NCBI RefSeq assembly: GCF_000317045.1
Contig: NC_019703.1
Coordinates: forward strand, 3,790,934 to 3,854,933
Length of the DNA stretch: 64,000 nt
Direction of reading: 5' to 3'
Source of the DNA: Geitlerinema sp. PCC 7407
Lineage (GTDB): Bacteria > Cyanobacteriota > Cyanobacteriia > PCC-7407
Part shown: positions 18,920-62,199 of the stretch, one piece after another
How the letters are laid out: every line of letters begins with the position of its first letter
Numbering within the stretch: the first letter of the stretch is position 1
Notes under the pieces: model-generated
What the model saw: only the letters and a program-made list of their open reading frames with translations
Databases searched by the model: none
Told to the model about the DNA's origin: nothing
Made by a program: the position numbers and the translations under genes

Positions 18920-19423
18920 ATGTCGACCATTGAAAAAGTAGCCGTCGGTGTTGTCTGTTTCGCGATCGCCTTCTTACTCGCCAGTCTCCTGGAGTATTGG
19001 GTCCATCGCCTCATGCACGCCTCCCCCAAAATCGGGGAGCGCCACCGTGATCACCACCGCCGCAACGAAGGCCAAGGCGTGGTGTGGGAGTTTCGCGACT
19101 ACGTCAAAGGCGGCATCCTGGTGATGGGCCTGATGTTCTTTATTTCCCCCGAAGCGGGCATCGGCTGGCTTCTCGGCGGCCTGGTGTACTCGGCCTTTTC
19201 GGCCTACGCCCACCAGCTCCAGCACGAAAACCCCACCAAGTGTTTCTGGATGAAGATGCCCGTCCACTACGTCCACCACAAGTACGGCATGTGGCACCAC
19301 AACTTTGGCCTAGCCGTGGACTGGTGGGACCACATTTTTGGCACCTACAAGCCCGTGGAGTGGCTGACTGACGAGGAAACCCAGCAGCCAGAGCGCGGCT
19401 ACCTGCAACTGCGCTGGTGGTAA
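18920..19423 (+). CDS. Fatty acid hydroxylase / sterol desaturase superfamily di-iron membrane enzyme
   Basis: Protein of 167 residues from ATG 18920, preceded by GGAGGAAGGAG. The di-iron His boxes are complete: H29xxxH33, H42xxH45H46, H98xxxH102, H116xxH119H120 and H126H127, with about four membrane helices around them. The family uses O2 and electrons to hydroxylate membrane lipids or carotenoids. The short size and box pattern resemble the Scs7/FA2H-type 2-hydroxylases and also CrtR/CrtZ-like enzymes, so the substrate is open. It ends 89 bases before a gene for an Mpo1-like 2-hydroxy-fatty-acid dioxygenase, which favours a 2-hydroxy fatty acid product by context. Confidence 0.85.
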   Translation: MSTIEKVAVGVVCFAIAFLLASLLEYWVHRLMHASPKIGERHRDHHRRNEGQGVVWEFRDYVKGGILVMGLMFFISPEAGIGWLLGGLVYSAFSAYAHQLQHENPTKCFWMKMPVHYVHHKYGMWHHNFGLAVDWWDHIFGTYKPVEWLTDEETQQPERGYLQLRWW

Positions 19424-19512
19424 AGGTCTCAGGAAATTCTCGGAGAGATGCGCTATCTTGCCTACAAGCGCAGTTGCGCTTCAAACGGGTTTCGCGTGAG
19501 GAGAATACCGTT

Positions 19513-19830
19513 GTGAGTTACTTCCAAGAAGCAAAAGCCCACTTCATTGCTTCGCATCAGCACCCCATCAACCAAGCGCTGCACCATTTGACCAATATCC
19601 TGGCGATCGCGGCAGTCGTGCTGCTATTCATCGATTGGCGCTTCACGCTGATCTGCCTCGTGCTCACCCAGGTTTTTGCCCTGGGGGGCCACGCCGTCTT
19701 CGAAAAAAATGAGCCCGCCTTTCGCAAGTACCCCGGCATCACCATCTTGGCGTCGCTTTCTTGGTCCTTCGAAAATTGGTTCGGGTTGCGACAGCTTTTG
19801 CAGCGGCCTACCCGTCAAATTCATTCCTAA
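19513..19830 (+). CDS. Mpo1/DUF962-like membrane protein, possible 2-hydroxy fatty acid dioxygenase
   Basis: Protein of 105 residues from GTG 19513, which has AGGAG about 9 bases upstream. Two to three membrane helices are visible. Conserved residues are His17-Pro-x-Asn20-x3-His24-His25 near the N-terminus, GGH60 and FEKNEPA at 63 to 69, the pattern I recall from the DUF962 family. Yeast Mpo1 of this family is an iron-dependent dioxygenase that shortens 2-hydroxy fatty acids by one carbon. The protein is shorter than the yeast enzyme but keeps the His residues. Its position directly after a fatty acid hydroxylase gene suggests a two-step alpha-oxidation unit. Confidence 0.78.
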   Translation: MSYFQEAKAHFIASHQHPINQALHHLTNILAIAAVVLLFIDWRFTLICLVLTQVFALGGHAVFEKNEPAFRKYPGITILASLSWSFENWFGLRQLLQRPTRQIHS

Positions 19831-20086
19831 CCCTTCAGATCGCCTGACGGAGCGATGTTTTTGCGCTTCCAGCCTGTTTAGGTCAGGAAATCATTATCCG
19901 GCCTGTAATTCACGGCATTTTCTGGAAGCTTCCTGTGGGAGATTTGAAGCACGCTTTGGATCGATAGGACCACAGCCAGCGTCCCCCTTTGTCCCTTCGG
20001 AAATAGGCCTAGAATTTTTGGATTTTGAGTCTGTTTCCATCGTCTAGAAGTTCGTTGCGAATTTACTGTCTAGAGAAGGAGATTTC

Positions 20087-21481
20087 ATGTATCAAGGTCT
20101 GTTGGTGATTGATGCGGATGCTCACAAGTTAGAGAATCCCCTCGTTTTGCGGGAATACCTGGAGCCGGAATACCGCGATCGCATTGGTTTGGTGATCGAC
20201 AGCCTCGGCGATCAGCGCGCTCGCCTCATCGACCACAACCCTGCCACGGGCAAAGCAGATTTCACCCGGATGTTCCCCCAACCCCAAGGCTTGGGCAAGG
20301 GCGGCTTCCGCAACCTCCATCCTGAAACGACCCTGGGTGCCACCTTCAATCACTTGCGGGTCGAGCACATGGACCGTGAGGGAGTCGACGTTCAGGTGAT
20401 CTACGGGACCCTGAACCTGATTTTTTCGAGCATTATCGACAAAGATTTTGCGATCGCCCTGTGCAAGGCCTACAACAACTACATCGCCGATGACTGCCGT
20501 CCTTACGGCGATCGCCTCAAGCCCATCGGCGTGATCCCGCTGCAAGACGTGGATGAAGCCGTCAAAGAAATGCGCCGCTGCGTCAACGAGCTCGGCATGA
20601 TCGGGGTCGCCGTCGCTCCCAACATGCCCATTCCCCACCCCAAGGCTCCTGACGCCTTTCCCGACATCCGCACCTGCAAAGTCATCAGCCATCCGGATTT
20701 CCGGCCCATCCTGCAAGCCGCGGTGGATCTCGACATCGCCCTCGGCATCCACGGTGGCCCCGGCTCCTACATGGTCGGCGGCATCTCCGACCACACCGAG
20801 ACCTTTGTGCTGACCCACATCTTCGTGCAGCGCAACCAGCAGCAGCTCGCCATGGCCCGCATGGTCTTTGACGGAGCCTTCGAGCAGTTCCCGGATCTAC
20901 GCGTCGGCTTCCTCGAAGGCGGCTGCGGCTGGATTCCCGATCTAGCCCACGCTTTCCACGAGCACTGGGAGAAGCGGATTCGCGACTTTGATCCCAAGAG
21001 CCCCTACCGTCCGTCCCTGGTGGAATACACCAAGAACATGATGATGGAGCGCGGTTCCAAGAACAAAGTCAACATCATCAACCAGGCGAAGAACCTGTTT
21101 GATCTGCTGTGGAACGCTGAGCACGATCCGAGCAAGATCGACGACGCCAGCCTCTACGAGCACTACGATCTGCGCCACCGCGATCCGATGGATTATTTCA
21201 AGCGCGGCCAGATCTTCGCCTCTTTTGAGTCGGATGATCCAGGCCCCATGTACATGCCCACCGGCCTGGGTGAGTGCGGCAAGCATATTGCCTGCTTCTC
21301 GGGAGACTATGGCCACTGGGATGGCGTCCTCACCGACTGCGTGAAGGATGCAGCGACGCTCAACGATTACGATCGCGACTACCTGAGCCTGCTGCTGGGC
21401 GGCAACGCGCTGGCGCTGTACGGCGATCGCCTCCGCAACTCCCTGCCCGAGTCCCTCAAGGCAGCCGCAGCCGCTGTATAA
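20087..21481 (+). CDS. Amidohydrolase-family (Amidohydro_2) metal-dependent hydrolase
   Basis: Protein of 464 residues, ATG 20087 with AAGGAG 7 bases upstream. The N-terminal metal motif is VIDADAHKLE (D-x-D-x-H rather than the usual H-x-H). Later blocks are RVEHMDREGVDVQVIYG, ALGIHGGPGS with a candidate His ligand, VGFLEGGCGWIP, and CFSGDYGHWDG with a candidate Asp. These fit the TIM-barrel Amidohydro_2 family, which includes decarboxylases and hydrolases. I cannot tell the substrate. The gene has a 256-base leader and a strong terminator (21544..21592), so it is probably a single-gene unit. Confidence 0.85.
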   Translation: MYQGLLVIDADAHKLENPLVLREYLEPEYRDRIGLVIDSLGDQRARLIDHNPATGKADFTRMFPQPQGLGKGGFRNLHPETTLGATFNHLRVEHMDREGVDVQVIYGTLNLIFSSIIDKDFAIALCKAYNNYIADDCRPYGDRLKPIGVIPLQDVDEAVKEMRRCVNELGMIGVAVAPNMPIPHPKAPDAFPDIRTCKVISHPDFRPILQAAVDLDIALGIHGGPGSYMVGGISDHTETFVLTHIFVQRNQQQLAMARMVFDGAFEQFPDLRVGFLEGGCGWIPDLAHAFHEHWEKRIRDFDPKSPYRPSLVEYTKNMMMERGSKNKVNIINQAKNLFDLLWNAEHDPSKIDDASLYEHYDLRHRDPMDYFKRGQIFASFESDDPGPMYMPTGLGECGKHIACFSGDYGHWDGVLTDCVKDAATLNDYDRDYLSLLLGGNALALYGDRLRNSLPESLKAAAAAV

Positions 21482-24416: not shown

Positions 24417-24658
24417 ATCCACCAGCTTCTCATCCCAAAGACACACTAAATTTAGGCAAACGATACAAGAATCAAGGCTCAATTCAGCTTTTAGGTTCTT
24501 GCTATATCTATCTTTGGGAGGATGCAGTAATTCTTTGGCATTATGCTACCTTGAGGAAAATTTCCACACCGCTTCTTACGATCCGCCTCAAAAGTTTAGC
24601 GAGCAACCGATAGAAAAATCTTGAGCCTCGCTCAGTTTGTCACATTAGCGCTTTGGTC

Positions 24659-26524
24659 ATGCTTAATTCCTCTTCTGCGAACCCCACATACATCTTGGGT
24701 GCAGGTCCCGCAGGGCTTGCGGCTGCTTATCAGCTTTCAAAAGCAGGACAATCTACGGTTGTCTTAGAGCGAGACCAGCGCGTAGGAGGACTGGCCAAAA
24801 GCTTGGAATATCAAGGGTTTATATTGGACTATGGACCTCATCGCTTTTACACCAAGCTGGCGCCTGTTTTGGCACTTTGGGATGAGGTTTTGCAAGATGA
24901 GCAGGTCACCGTTGATCGGCTGACGCGAATCTATTATGAAGACAAATATTTTAACTATCCGTTGAAAGCAACTGAGGCCATTTTTGCCTTGGGCTTTTGG
25001 GAGAGCAGCCGAATTATTGCCTCCTACGCCAAAGCCAAGCTGTTCCCAAACCACCATCCCCAAAATTTTGCTGAGTGGGTCTCTGGACAATTTGGGCGTC
25101 GGCTGTTTGAAATCTTTTTTGATTCCTACACAGAGAAGCTCTGGGGGATTCCCTGTACAGAAATCAGCGCAGACTGGGCGGCTCAGCGGATCAAAACGCT
25201 GTCGTTGGGCAAAGCCATGCGGACGGCTCTTTTAGGGAACGATGGAAAAATCAAAACCCTAATTGATCAATTTCAGTATCCGCGCCTGGGGTCTGGCCAG
25301 CTCTACGATCGCATCCAGGAGGATCTAGAGCAGCGCCAACAAACGGTTTTGCTCAATACAGAGGTAGTCAAGCTCCACCATCAGCACGGCCAGATCACCC
25401 ACGTCACGATGCGCGATCGCGCCACTCAGGAGGAGTCCACGGCTCCCTGTGGCCACGTGATTTCGTCGATTCCCATCACGCTGCTGCTAGAGCAGATGGA
25501 CCCGCTGCCGCCTGAACCTGTTTTGAATGCAGCGCGATCGCTCAAGTTCCGCAACACGATTTTGGTCTATCTCATTGTCGAGGCGGCAGACTTATTTCCC
25601 GACAACTGGCTGTACATCAATGATGGCAGCGTGGGCCTAGGACGAGTCACCAACTTCCGCAACTGGTCCCCAGACATGCTGCCCAACGACTACCAAACGC
25701 CGCTGTGCTGCGAGTACTGGTGCAACTTTGACGAAGCAGGCTGGACTCAATCAGACGATCGCTGGATCGAGCAGGCCGCTCAAGATTTGCGCAAGATTTC
25801 TCTGCTCGGCAATCAGAAGGTTTCGGGCGGATTTGTTTTGCGACTGCCCAGAACCTATCCAATCTACGCCGGGGACTACAAGCAGTCTTTGCAGACTCTT
25901 CAAACCTATCTTCAGAGCTTTCAAAATCTGCAGCTGGTTGGTCGCTATGGCTCCTTTAAGTACAACAACCAAGACCATAGTTTGCTGATGGGAATTCTGG
26001 CAGCTGAAAATGTGCTTGAACCAGGCAAGCATAATCTTTGGTCGATCAACTCTGACAGTGAATATGTTGAGGAAGCGCGGGCAGAAGACGCCACCACAGC
26101 GGCGATCGCCCGTGAAGCTTCGCGTCGACAACGCATCCTGCAAACCGGTCAGCGATTCGGCCGTTATCTAGGCACTGGCAGCGCCGCCACCTTTGTGGAT
26201 GTCTTCATCTTTGTCAGCCTCATCAAGCTAGATGTTTGGTATGTGTTCGCGTTGCTTACTAGCTATTGCTGCGGCCTGACCCTCAACTTTTTCTTGAGCC
26301 GACGCTACGTTTTTGGCGTGTATTGGAAAAACAGCCTTTTTCAGTATCTCGTCTTTGCGGCAGTGGCGCTTAATAGCCTGTTGGCAAACTTGGGACTGCT
26401 GCAAATCATGATGAATGAGCTTAGCTGGAGTCCGACGATCAGTCGCTTGATTTCTGCGGGGCTTATTGCGGTTCTCAGCTTTAGCGGGCATCAGATTTAT
26501 TCTTTTGCCAATCGCCCTTCTTGA
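24659..26524 (+). CDS. FAD-dependent oxidoreductase fused to a GtrA membrane domain
   Basis: Protein of 621 residues from ATG 24659 (TTG 24653 is just upstream). Residues 1 to ~480 are an amine-oxidase/UDP-galactopyranose-mutase-like flavoprotein: YILGAGPAGLAAAYQL for FAD binding, VGGLAKS, YGPHRFYTK, and a late GRYGSFKYNNQDHSLLMG. Residues ~499 to 621 are a complete GtrA domain with four membrane helices (VWYVFALLTSYCCGL, LSRRYVFGVYWKN). The fusion suggests that the flavoenzyme acts on a sugar or polyprenyl-linked intermediate that the GtrA part moves or holds at the membrane. The frame is continuous through the junction, so this is not a sequencing join that I can detect. Confidence 0.88.
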   Translation: MLNSSSANPTYILGAGPAGLAAAYQLSKAGQSTVVLERDQRVGGLAKSLEYQGFILDYGPHRFYTKLAPVLALWDEVLQDEQVTVDRLTRIYYEDKYFNYPLKATEAIFALGFWESSRIIASYAKAKLFPNHHPQNFAEWVSGQFGRRLFEIFFDSYTEKLWGIPCTEISADWAAQRIKTLSLGKAMRTALLGNDGKIKTLIDQFQYPRLGSGQLYDRIQEDLEQRQQTVLLNTEVVKLHHQHGQITHVTMRDRATQEESTAPCGHVISSIPITLLLEQMDPLPPEPVLNAARSLKFRNTILVYLIVEAADLFPDNWLYINDGSVGLGRVTNFRNWSPDMLPNDYQTPLCCEYWCNFDEAGWTQSDDRWIEQAAQDLRKISLLGNQKVSGGFVLRLPRTYPIYAGDYKQSLQTLQTYLQSFQNLQLVGRYGSFKYNNQDHSLLMGILAAENVLEPGKHNLWSINSDSEYVEEARAEDATTAAIAREASRRQRILQTGQRFGRYLGTGSAATFVDVFIFVSLIKLDVWYVFALLTSYCCGLTLNFFLSRRYVFGVYWKNSLFQYLVFAAVALNSLLANLGLLQIMMNELSWSPTISRLISAGLIAVLSFSGHQIYSFANRPS

Positions 26525-59282: not shown

Positions 59283-60416
59283 ATGGTACGAACCGGCATT
59301 GGCATTCGCACAGCCCAGGTGCGCTCTGAGCGCCTCGTAGGACAGATCCACGTCTATGACGGCGCGGGCAAGGGCAAATCCCAAGCGGCCTTGGGAGTGG
59401 TGCTGCGATCGATCGGTCTGGGCATCGCGGCGGCGGAGCCCACCCGCGTGCTGCTGCTGCGCTTCTTGAAGGGGCCGGGGCGCAACTACGACGAAGACGC
59501 CGCCATTGAGGCACTTCAGCAGGGCTTTCCCCACCTGATCGACCAGGTGCGCACCGGTCGAGCCGAGTATTTCGGGCCAGAGGAAATTACCAAGTTTGAC
59601 CGCTTGGAGGCGCAGCGGGGCTGGGATGTGGCCAAGGGGGCGATCGCCTCTGGGCTGTACTCCGTGGTCGTGATGGACGAGCTGAACCCGGTGCTCGACC
59701 TAGGGCTGCTGCCGGTGGAGGAAGTGGCCAAGGTGCTGCAAAACAAGCCCGCCGACCTTGAAATCATCGTCACCGGCCGGGCCGCGCCGCCGAGGCTGCT
59801 GGAGGTGGCGGATTTGCACTCCGAGATGCGGCCCCATTTTCACCAGACCGCCATCGACCACGGCATGGAGGGCATCGAGATCTACACAGGGGCAGGCAAG
59901 GGCAAATCCACCAGCGCCCTGGGCAAGGCCCTCCAGGCCATTGGCCGCGGCATCAGCCAGGACAAGTCCCACCGTGTGCTGATCATGCAGTGGCTCAAGG
60001 GTGGCAGCGGCTACACCGAGGACGCCGCGATCGCCGCTTTGCAGCAGAGCTATCCCAACCTGGTCGATCACCAGCGCTGCGGCCGAGACGCCATCGTCTG
60101 GCGGGGCCAGCAGCAGGAGCTCGACTACGTGGAGGCCGAGCGGGGCTGGGAAATCGCCCGAGCCGCGATCGCCTCTGGCCTCTACAAAACCATCATCCTC
60201 GACGAGCTCAACCCCACCGTCGATCTGGAGCTGCTGCCCCAGGAGCCGATCATTCAGGCCCTCCTGCGCAAGCCCCGAGACACCGAGGTGATCATCACCG
60301 GCCGCTGCAAGCACCCGCCGGCCTACTTTGATCTGGCCAGCATCCACTCCGAGATGATTTGCCACAAGCACTACGCCGAGAAGGGCATTGATCTCAAGCG
60401 CGGCGTTGATTTCTAG
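59283..60416 (+). CDS. Tandem CobO/CobA-type cob(I)yrinate adenosyltransferase
   Basis: Protein of 377 residues made of two P-loop adenosyltransferase units in one chain. The first P-loop is GAGKGKS at residues 27 to 33 and the second is GAGKGKS at 203 to 209. Both halves have the Walker B-like MDELNPVLDL / LDELNPTVDL and the IVTGR / IITGR motif, so neither half is obviously dead. A single CobO/BtuR subunit is about 180 to 200 residues and works as a dimer; this protein would be a covalent dimer. It adds the adenosyl ligand to cobalamin or its precursors. Confidence 0.87.
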   Translation: MVRTGIGIRTAQVRSERLVGQIHVYDGAGKGKSQAALGVVLRSIGLGIAAAEPTRVLLLRFLKGPGRNYDEDAAIEALQQGFPHLIDQVRTGRAEYFGPEEITKFDRLEAQRGWDVAKGAIASGLYSVVVMDELNPVLDLGLLPVEEVAKVLQNKPADLEIIVTGRAAPPRLLEVADLHSEMRPHFHQTAIDHGMEGIEIYTGAGKGKSTSALGKALQAIGRGISQDKSHRVLIMQWLKGGSGYTEDAAIAALQQSYPNLVDHQRCGRDAIVWRGQQQELDYVEAERGWEIARAAIASGLYKTIILDELNPTVDLELLPQEPIIQALLRKPRDTEVIITGRCKHPPAYFDLASIHSEMICHKHYAEKGIDLKRGVDF

Positions 60417-60432
60417 CAAAAATGGCTCATTT

Positions 60433-60951
60433 ATGACTTCTAGCTGCCAGATTCGCCCCGAAACGCCGGAGGACTACGCCGCGATCGCCGCTGTGGTGAC
60501 CGCCGCCTTTGGTCGAGCGGACGAAGCCCGCTTGATTGATCGGATTCGAGAGAGCGATCGCTATCGGCCCGAGCTTGCTCTGGTCGCCGTGGACGGCGAC
60601 GCCATCGTCGGCCACGTTTTGCTGAGCGGCATTGACCTCGTAGGGGCCGAGACCTGGCCCGTCCTGGGTCTCGCGCCCCTGGCCGTCCACCCCGACCACC
60701 AGCGCCAAGGAATCGGCAGCGCCCTCACCCAAGGGGCGATCGCCGCCGCCGAGGCCCAAGCCGCGCCGCTCATCGTCGTCCTCGGCCACGCCGACTTTTA
60801 CAGCCGATTCGGGTTCGAGATCTCGACCGATCACGGCATCGAGTCCCCCTTTCCCGTCCCTCCGGAGGTCTTCCGGATCCAGCGCCTGACCCACTACCGG
60901 GACGAGTACCGGGGCCTCGTTCAGTACCCCGCCGCCTTCCAGGGTTTGTGA
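60433..60951 (+). CDS. GNAT-family N-acetyltransferase
   Basis: Protein of 172 residues from ATG 60433, 16 bases after the cobO-like gene, so probably co-transcribed. The acetyl-CoA-binding motif is VHPDHQRQGIGSALTQGAI (R/Q-x-x-G-x-G/A). VLGHADFYSRFGF is typical of the YhbS-like subgroup. It would transfer an acetyl group to an unknown amine acceptor. Confidence 0.9.
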   Translation: MTSSCQIRPETPEDYAAIAAVVTAAFGRADEARLIDRIRESDRYRPELALVAVDGDAIVGHVLLSGIDLVGAETWPVLGLAPLAVHPDHQRQGIGSALTQGAIAAAEAQAAPLIVVLGHADFYSRFGFEISTDHGIESPFPVPPEVFRIQRLTHYRDEYRGLVQYPAAFQGL

Positions 60952-61014
60952 GCCCAAACACACCAAACCCCTTCTCCCAGACTTGAGAAAAGGGGTTTGG
61001 AGCCAACCAGACGT

Positions 61015-62199
61015 CTAGCCCTTCACGCAGAGCACCTGCTTGAGCGTCGCCACAACCTCGACCAAATCCGCCTGCTGAGCCATCACTTCTTCAATGGGCT
61101 TGTAAGCTGCCGGAATCTCGTCAATCACGCCAGAGTCCTTGCGGCACTCGATGCCCTCGGTTTGGCGCACCAAGTCGTCCACCGTGAACTGCTGCTTCGC
61201 CTTGGAGCGAGACATCAGGCGTCCAGCGCCATGGCTGCAAGAGCAGTAGCTCTCGGGGTTGCCCTTGCCCCGCACGATAAAAGACTTGGCCCCCATCGAG
61301 CCGGGAATGATGCCGTAGTCCTCCGACCGCGCCCGCACCGCTCCTTTGCGGGTGACGTAGACCTCTTGGTCGTAGTGGGTTTCGCGCTCTGCGTAGTTGT
61401 GGTGGCAGTTCACCATCAGGCGCGGCTTGGTCGCCTTGCCGCCCGCCAGGTGGGTCTCGACGATGCGCTGAAACCGCCGCATCATCACGTCCCGGTTGTA
61501 GCGGGCGTAGTCCTGGGCCCACTGCAAGTCGCGCCAGTAGGCCGCAAACTCCGGCGTCCCCGCCACAAAGTAGGCCAGGTCTGGATCGGGCAAGCGGAGC
61601 TCCGCCAGCTTCGCGAGGTCGCGGGCCGTGCGGATGTGGTTTTGGGCCAGCATATTGCCGATGTTGCGCGAGCCGGAGTGCAGCATCAGCCACACCTGGT
61701 CCTCGGTGTCGAGGCACAGCTCGATGAAGTGGTTGCCGCCCCCTAGGGAGCCCATTTGGCGCAGGGCCTTGGTTTCCAGGTGCTGCACGCCGCCATGGAG
61801 ATCTTTGAACTGGGACCAGCCGCGCCAGTTGTAGACCTCTTTCTCGATGTCTTTGTTTTCGCTAAAGCCAACGGGAATGGCGGCCTCCAGTTCACGGCGA
61901 ATTTTCTTGAGGGTTTTGCTTTCGAGCTGGTCGGCCCGAAAAGGCGTCTGAAGGGCACACATGCCACAGCCGATGTCAACGCCGACAGCCGCCGGAATGA
62001 TGGCATCTTGGGTGGCGATCACGGAGCCGACCAGCGCCCCTTTGCCCAGGTGGACGTCGGGCATGAGGGCCACGTGCTTGAAGACAAAGGGCAGGGAGGC
62101 GACGTTTTTGGCCATCTGGGTCTCCGCATGCCCCAGTCCGTGGCTCGCCCAGGACAAGACGGGCGCTGGCGTGGTGATGTTGAGGGGTTCGTGGGGCAT
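61015..62199 (-). CDS. rtcB: RNA-splicing ligase RtcB
   Basis: Protein of 394 residues, the shorter bacterial form. RtcB joins 2',3'-cyclic-phosphate or 3'-phosphate ends to 5'-hydroxyl ends using GTP and Mn2+. Metal ligands and active-site blocks are visible: VGVDIGCGMCA, GSLGGGNHFIEL, LHSGSRNIG, NCHHNYAE and SCSHGAGRLMSR, where the His of SHGAGR is the site of guanylation. GAGG lies about 9 bases before the ATG. No archease or RNA-end cyclase gene is adjacent. Confidence 0.96.
   Translation of the reverse strand: MPHEPLNITTPAPVLSWASHGLGHAETQMAKNVASLPFVFKHVALMPDVHLGKGALVGSVIATQDAIIPAAVGVDIGCGMCALQTPFRADQLESKTLKKIRRELEAAIPVGFSENKDIEKEVYNWRGWSQFKDLHGGVQHLETKALRQMGSLGGGNHFIELCLDTEDQVWLMLHSGSRNIGNMLAQNHIRTARDLAKLAELRLPDPDLAYFVAGTPEFAAYWRDLQWAQDYARYNRDVMMRRFQRIVETHLAGGKATKPRLMVNCHHNYAERETHYDQEVYVTRKGAVRARSEDYGIIPGSMGAKSFIVRGKGNPESYCSCSHGAGRLMSRSKAKQQFTVDDLVRQTEGIECRKDSGVIDEIPAAYKPIEEVMAQQADLVEVVATLKQVLCVKG

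Follow-up and report, generated by a model that had tools for sequence, protein, structure and literature searches.

Why does a cyanobacterium carry, side by side, genes for two oxygenases whose yeast relatives meet in lipid metabolism? Yeast Scs7 is a ceramide fatty-acid 2-hydroxylase and Mpo1 is the 2-hydroxy-palmitate dioxygenase of phytosphingosine breakdown, and both work on sphingolipid chains. In the window, a stretch of 64,000 nucleotides from Geitlerinema sp. PCC 7407, a gene for a fatty acid hydroxylase-type protein (HYD) is followed by one for an Mpo1-like protein, and the original prediction took the two to be a possible fatty-acid alpha-oxidation pair. The analysis described here suggests that they probably belong, together with a third gene encoding a protein termed ARO, to an oxygen-dependent lipid-tailoring trio (18920-21481) of a ceramide-type, sphingolipid-like pathway.

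Reports of sphingolipids in cyanobacteria cover just two organisms, and as of PMC8895605 the phylum had no characterized enzyme of sphingolipid metabolism; the one candidate tested, Nostoc Npun_R3567, was found not to be a serine palmitoyltransferase (PMC8895605). A search of open-licence papers for the present gene combination yielded none. The finding is real and under-described, being a probable bacterial ceramide gene cluster plus an oxygenase module for which no earlier description was found. It offers a sharply defined candidate gene set that makes cyanobacterial sphingolipid synthesis and modification directly testable, and a concrete metabolic context for bacterial DUF962/Mpo1 proteins and for an oxygenase-like branch of PF04909.

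The oxygenase genes and their products

The locus comprises the following features:

18920..19423, + strand: HYD, a putative membrane di-iron hydroxylase of the FA_hydroxylase family (PF04116); ATG start, 167 aa
19513..19830, + strand: Mpo1-like protein (PF06127/DUF962), a putative Fe-dependent 2-hydroxy-acyl dioxygenase; GTG start, 105 aa
19831..20086, + strand: gap of 256 bp separating the Mpo1-like gene from ARO and containing a single weak terminator-like hairpin (19839-19856)
20087..21481, + strand: ARO, a 464-aa member of PF04909 in which the ligands of amidohydrolase-related dinuclear oxygenases are all present

Both neighbouring oxygenase genes are real. The predicted arrangement of a 167-residue His-box protein, a spacer of 89 bp and a 105-residue DUF962 protein was recovered among the open reading frames of the window, and both products exceed the Pfam cut-offs: HYD scores 57.3 bits against PF04116 (cut-off 31, E 2.9e-15) and the Mpo1-like protein 50.4 bits against PF06127 (cut-off 24, E 2.5e-13). 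The di-iron His boxes ascribed to HYD are indeed complete, with H29, H33, H42, H45, H46, H98, H102, H116, H119, H120 and H127 invariant in 29 homologues. The only plausible PDB fold matches of its AlphaFold2 model (pLDDT 83.8) are 4zr0 and 4zr1, both yeast Scs7p, found by Foldseek with a probability of 0.90-0.91, weak E values of 0.24-0.46 and a TM score of 0.51-0.57 on the query. In the Mpo1-like protein, H15, N20, L23, H24, G59, H60 and E64 are invariant in 24 homologues, including ones that are 21-33% identical. Its AlphaFold2 model has a pLDDT of 89.8, and no PDB relative was detected by sequence or by fold; the papers searched contained nothing direct on the biochemistry or activity of bacterial Mpo1 members. 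The source genome contains a single PF06127 gene, and its relatives are cyanobacterial.

A scan for terminator-like sites gave 6, only slightly above the 3.4 +/- 1.7 expected from shuffled sequences, which speaks neither for nor against co-transcription, and the promoter scan gave no signal above shuffles. Elsewhere in the window, a single open reading frame at 24653-26524 (+ strand) was observed to combine an FAD amine oxidoreductase domain with a GtrA/DPMS membrane domain.

Conservation of the gene pair

Conservation was assessed in 59 relatives (own genome counted), in a sample of 386 cyanobacterial genomes, where the Mpo1-like subfamily was delimited at E < 1e-39, and in 66 named loci with a close Mpo1 homologue. 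Among the relatives, 10 of 59 have a close Mpo1 homologue, all ten also have HYD, and the two genes are adjacent in nine. The Mpo1-like subfamily was detected in 18 of the 386 genomes, every one of which encodes HYD, compared with 7 of the 368 others (p 1e-25, Fisher test; this value overstates independence because the genomes are related, those with Mpo1 representing 8 families). Whether the genes are neighbours in other cyanobacteria had been proposed as a check on the prediction, and neighbours they are: 17 of the 18 genomes have them adjacent in the same order, and the eighteenth has them on separate contigs. The pairing is thus beyond chance. Taking the 59-relative and 386-genome sets together, adjacency and order are kept in 20 of 22 genomes, with gaps of 15 to 264 bp in those 20, and HYD lies at most 600 bp upstream of Mpo1 in 48 of the 66 named loci. 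The ten loci that were compared share few flanking genes besides ARO and one for a GH3-family ligase, indicating that the genes are kept together while their surroundings change. Neither HYD nor ARO was found near 14 distant DUF962 loci, so the linkage is specific to the Mpo1-like subfamily.

The pair can also be separated. One genome (G056) has Mpo1 and ARO together and HYD 1.5 Mb away, and 7 of the 25 genomes with HYD lack Mpo1. A short HYD-like fragment with an internal TAG was observed in another genome (G036:C53:62140-62229), which has its GH3 gene (59386-61059) about 1 kb away; the fragment is perhaps a remnant of an earlier GH3-HYD arrangement.

A dinuclear oxygenase-like partner of the Mpo1-like protein

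The two genes were correctly described, and the conserved unit was found to extend one gene further than predicted, to 21481. The third gene, ARO, lies directly downstream of Mpo1 in 64 of the 66 named loci (64 of 65 assessable, as one of the two exceptions ends 116 bp past Mpo1). In a gammaproteobacterial metagenome-assembled genome (MAG), the Mpo1-like and PF04909 proteins are fused in one 577-aa open reading frame (L168:8001-9734, + strand). ARO is present in 18/18 genomes with Mpo1 and in 0/9 genomes that have the synthase described below and lack Mpo1; a search of 30 other genomes gave one weak match of 32%. ARO is thus the constant partner of Mpo1, and the two have the same phyletic pattern. 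Baaleninema simplex PCC 7105 and Aliterella atlantica CENA595 are among the culturable strains that carry the trio.

ARO matches Amidohydro_2 (PF04909) with E 1.2e-20, and its PDB relatives include DitZ, ACMSD and PtmU3. The family takes in dinuclear monooxygenases (AROs; PMC10811679), among which AibH2 binds its metals through D25, H27, H211, E265, D337 and H340, with D342 in the second sphere (PMC7782822). The corresponding residues of ARO, matched to AibH2 by motif and spacing (D-x-H, H, E, D-xx-H and an Asp two residues past the last His), are D11, H13, H222, E277, D407 and H410 plus D412, all invariant in 62 sequences. ARO is therefore predicted to keep all six dinuclear-oxygenase metal ligands and the second-sphere Asp.

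A divergent Mpo1-like gene was also observed in another, unrelated cyanobacterial cluster (L089-L099, for example L091:773-14639). This cluster further encodes a PF04116 protein of 250 aa, a GH3-like ligase, an Amidohydro_3 protein, several Rieske-type oxygenases, and ferredoxin-like, AurF-like and ferritin-like proteins, so that GH3, PF04116, Mpo1 and an amidohydrolase-fold protein recur there without ceramide-type genes. In one of its loci, Amidohydro_3 and the divergent Mpo1-like protein form a natural fusion of 731 aa (L099:9417-11612, - strand), the second independent fusion of Mpo1 to an amidohydrolase-fold protein.

Could the PF04909 protein instead be a conventional hydrolase or decarboxylase? 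An enzyme akin to a ceramidase-type amidase or to ACMSD would free a 2-hydroxy acid for Mpo1 and would make the unit catabolic, serving lipid turnover; this conflicts with the preferred reading only on the role of the third gene. The family name, the ACMSD-type decarboxylases among the PDB relatives and the Amidohydro_3 fusion of the unrelated cluster, which suggests an amidase partner, are consistent with such a role. The invariant oxygenase-type ligands and second-sphere Asp argue against it, as does E277, which aligns opposite a histidine of ACMSD. A simple hydrolase was accordingly downgraded on ligand comparison and is considered rather unlikely.

Genes for a putative ceramide-type backbone

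Which other genes accompany the trio? The families common to the named loci are GH3 (26 loci), Rieske oxygenase (25), DevC-type ABC permease (20), B12-radical SAM protein (19) and a PLP-dependent alpha-oxoamine synthase (19). Of the 386 genomes, 27 encode the synthase, namely all 18 with Mpo1 and 9 more (18/18 versus 9/368); all matches have E <= 1e-211, with none between there and the limit of 1e-90. HYD (at least 68% identity) was found in 25 genomes, and the synthase is present in 25/25 of these versus 2/361 others (p 3e-37, Fisher test, inflated by kinship). Six further genomes contain HYD homologues of 49-61% identity and no synthase. HYD is therefore read as accompanying the putative backbone genes, with Mpo1 and ARO as an optional, tightly bound sub-unit.

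The bacterial ceramide pathway consists of Spt, bCerS and CerR (PMC11087976, PMC11334938). A bCerS-like GNAT acyltransferase was detected in 27/27 genomes with the synthase and in 1 of 41 controls; it is 27% identical to Escherichia coli YghO and matches Acetyltransf_1 in the source genome. A CerR-like short-chain dehydrogenase/reductase (SDR) gene often adjoins it. These two labels rest on GNAT and SDR folds, on the YghO identity and on linkage of the three genes. The synthase lies with the acyltransferase in 8 of 14 synthase regions. Synthase, acyltransferase and SDR are all found side by side in 6 of these regions, among them that of the source genome, and also in G056; they are dispersed in other genomes. 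In the source genome, CerR, bCerS, synthase, Rieske, MFS and GH3 genes follow one another on the contig (about 3781352-3789535), which places them 1.4-9.6 kb ahead of the start of the window and some 20 kb upstream of the trio, and in one cyanobacterium (G338, L205) DevC-type ABC, CerR, bCerS, synthase, Rieske, MFS, GH3, HYD, Mpo1 and ARO genes are contiguous.

The identity of the synthase as Spt-like is putative. It scores far below the cut-offs of all three NCBIfam Spt models (159 bits against a cut-off of 640, 152 against 500 and 117 against 670), and its best NCBIfam score is with BioF (230 of 426 bits), which counts against the ceramide reading. Its PLP-lysine motif, TFSK, aligns with that of Spt (3a2b, E 3.8e-33), tied with KBL, and it also matches cysteate fatty-acyltransferase.

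Incomplete sets and additional genes were observed as well. One genome (G326:C20, L235:8467-10643) has the GH3, CerR-like and bCerS-like genes and lacks the synthase and HYD at the thresholds used; this set is possibly decayed or incomplete. Genes for B12-binding radical SAM-like proteins often come right after the trio (L158:9762-11345, L152:9763-11337 and L104:2455-5942, the last apparently with two in tandem).

The putative backbone genes were also found outside the cyanobacteria. In two SAR324 and two gammaproteobacterial MAGs, Mpo1 and ARO are accompanied by the synthase (56-62% identity), which has acyltransferase and SDR genes next to it, and in one SAR324 genome (G417) acyltransferase, synthase, SDR, radical SAM, GH3, Mpo1, ARO and two Rieske genes lie in a stretch of about 20 kb. 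MAG loci may be misbinned; identities of 56-70% to their cyanobacterial counterparts argue against simple cyanobacterial contamination as the source of the SAR324 and gammaproteobacterial proteins. The SAR324 genomes with Mpo1-ARO, which are MAGs and possibly incomplete, yielded no HYD homologue, and HYD matches in the gammaproteobacterial MAGs are of only 23-32% identity. HYD is thus probably not the sole supplier for Mpo1.

Does the synthase cluster make something other than a ceramide? It could yield another aminolipid or a secreted small molecule (a sulfonolipid, an N-acyl amino acid, a deoxyceramide or an oxidized natural product), which the trio would oxidize, Mpo1 performing some other oxygen-dependent cleavage. 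The synthase falls outside the curated Spt models and matches cysteate fatty-acyltransferase; GH3 is part of the set (21 of 22 GH3 genomes have the synthase), and its nearest characterized relative is the lyso-ornithine lipid synthetase OlsH; and the Rieske, B12-radical SAM, DevC-type ABC and MFS genes resemble a biosynthesis-and-export cluster. Against this, the linkage of a bCerS-like acyltransferase gene to a CerR-like SDR gene, seen in three lineages, agrees with the bacterial ceramide trio (PMC11087976), and such another product is regarded as unlikely.

What does the oxygenase module do?

The layout of synthase, acyltransferase and SDR, which resembles that of the bacterial ceramide pathway, and the roles of yeast Scs7 and Mpo1 together lead to the reading of the trio as an oxidative tailoring and shortening module. 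The observations are gene families, metal-ligand residues, linkage, co-occurrence and fusion; every substrate and reaction given here is inferred from them. By family and gene linkage, the Spt-like synthase, bCerS-like acyltransferase and CerR-like SDR would build a two-chain backbone. By analogy with yeast Scs7, HYD would hydroxylate either the amide-linked acyl chain or the long-chain base. ARO and Mpo1 would act as one unit, with ARO or HYD supplying a 2-hydroxylated chain that Mpo1 would cleave with O2, shortening it by one carbon; the product could then be used again by the GH3 ligase or by an acyl-ACP synthetase. ARO is the only constant candidate for the maker of the Mpo1 substrate, HYD being a possible one in cyanobacteria.

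A natural product may be relevant here. The cerebroside mooreaside A of Moorea producens combines an odd C25 acyl chain with a C17 base and is without a 2-hydroxyl (PMC6272925). Its odd chains would fit one-carbon shortening, and the missing 2-hydroxyl counts against the reading; field material can be mixed, and the compound is treated as a lead only.

The alpha-oxidation idea is kept in part. The two genes are conserved neighbours, HYD lies outside the CrtZ group, and co-occurrence with sphingolipid-type genes gives the yeast analogy weight; the two-gene unit did not hold, since the constant partner of Mpo1 is ARO. In a free-standing pair, HYD would make free 2-hydroxy fatty acids and Mpo1 would turn them into odd-chain acids, with no sphingolipid involved. 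The adjacency and kept order of the genes and the family chemistry of yeast Scs7 and Mpo1 speak for it; however, HYD tracks the synthase rather than Mpo1, occurs without Mpo1 in seven genomes and was not found in SAR324, which makes a free-standing pair improbable. Least probable is a role for HYD as carotenoid (CrtZ-like) or sterol/hopanoid hydroxylase in a coincidental neighbourhood: PF04116 also includes sterol and carotenoid enzymes, and Rieske and SDR neighbours match SdmA, SdmB and HpnA models, far below cut-off, whereas the linkage is kept across 8 families and the CrtZ proteins of Pantoea, Acinetobacter and Sphingomonas split from HYD at 100/100, which rules out the carotenoid hydroxylase that had been named as a possible refutation of the prediction.

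A wider proposal built on the lipid-tailoring reading can be offered only tentatively. Cyanobacteria, SAR324 and some gammaproteobacteria may share an undescribed ceramide-type pathway with an oxygen-dependent chain-shortening module, in which Mpo1 is coupled, and once fused, to a dinuclear oxygenase of amidohydrolase fold. Yeast-type alpha-oxidation of sphingolipid chains would then take place in bacteria with another hydroxylase.

Comparison with known systems

How does the gene set compare with characterized systems? It resembles the Caulobacter ceramide pathway, by layout and fold, in linking an alpha-oxoamine synthase, a GNAT N-acyltransferase and an NAD-dependent SDR. Caulobacter also has a hydroxylated amide-linked chain (PMC11324152), and acyl hydroxylation there is carried out by the DesA-family protein CC_0202. 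Here, in contrast, the synthase falls below the Spt cut-offs, the hydroxylase is of the PF04116 rather than the DesA family, and Mpo1, ARO, GH3, Rieske and B12-radical SAM genes are added.

ARO is like AibH2, PtmU3 and SfbO in being a PF04909 protein with six metal ligands, a second-sphere Asp and Rieske proteins nearby. It differs from them in its length of 464 aa and in being fused or adjacent to Mpo1, and its Rieske neighbours are complete oxygenases (Rieske plus VanA_C) rather than small AibG-type ferredoxins. The extended set includes a GH3-family acyl-activating ligase, as OlsH, the lyso-ornithine lipid synthetase of planctomycetes, is of GH3 type; the ligase scores 97 bits against a cut-off of 620 and hence is not OlsH.

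With yeast Scs7 and Mpo1, HYD and the Mpo1-like protein share their Pfam families, and the best, though weak, PDB fold match for HYD is Scs7p. Unlike in yeast, HYD is only 167 aa long and lacks a cytochrome b5 domain, the genes stand linked, and the constant partner of the bacterial Mpo1 is an oxygenase-like PF04909 protein.
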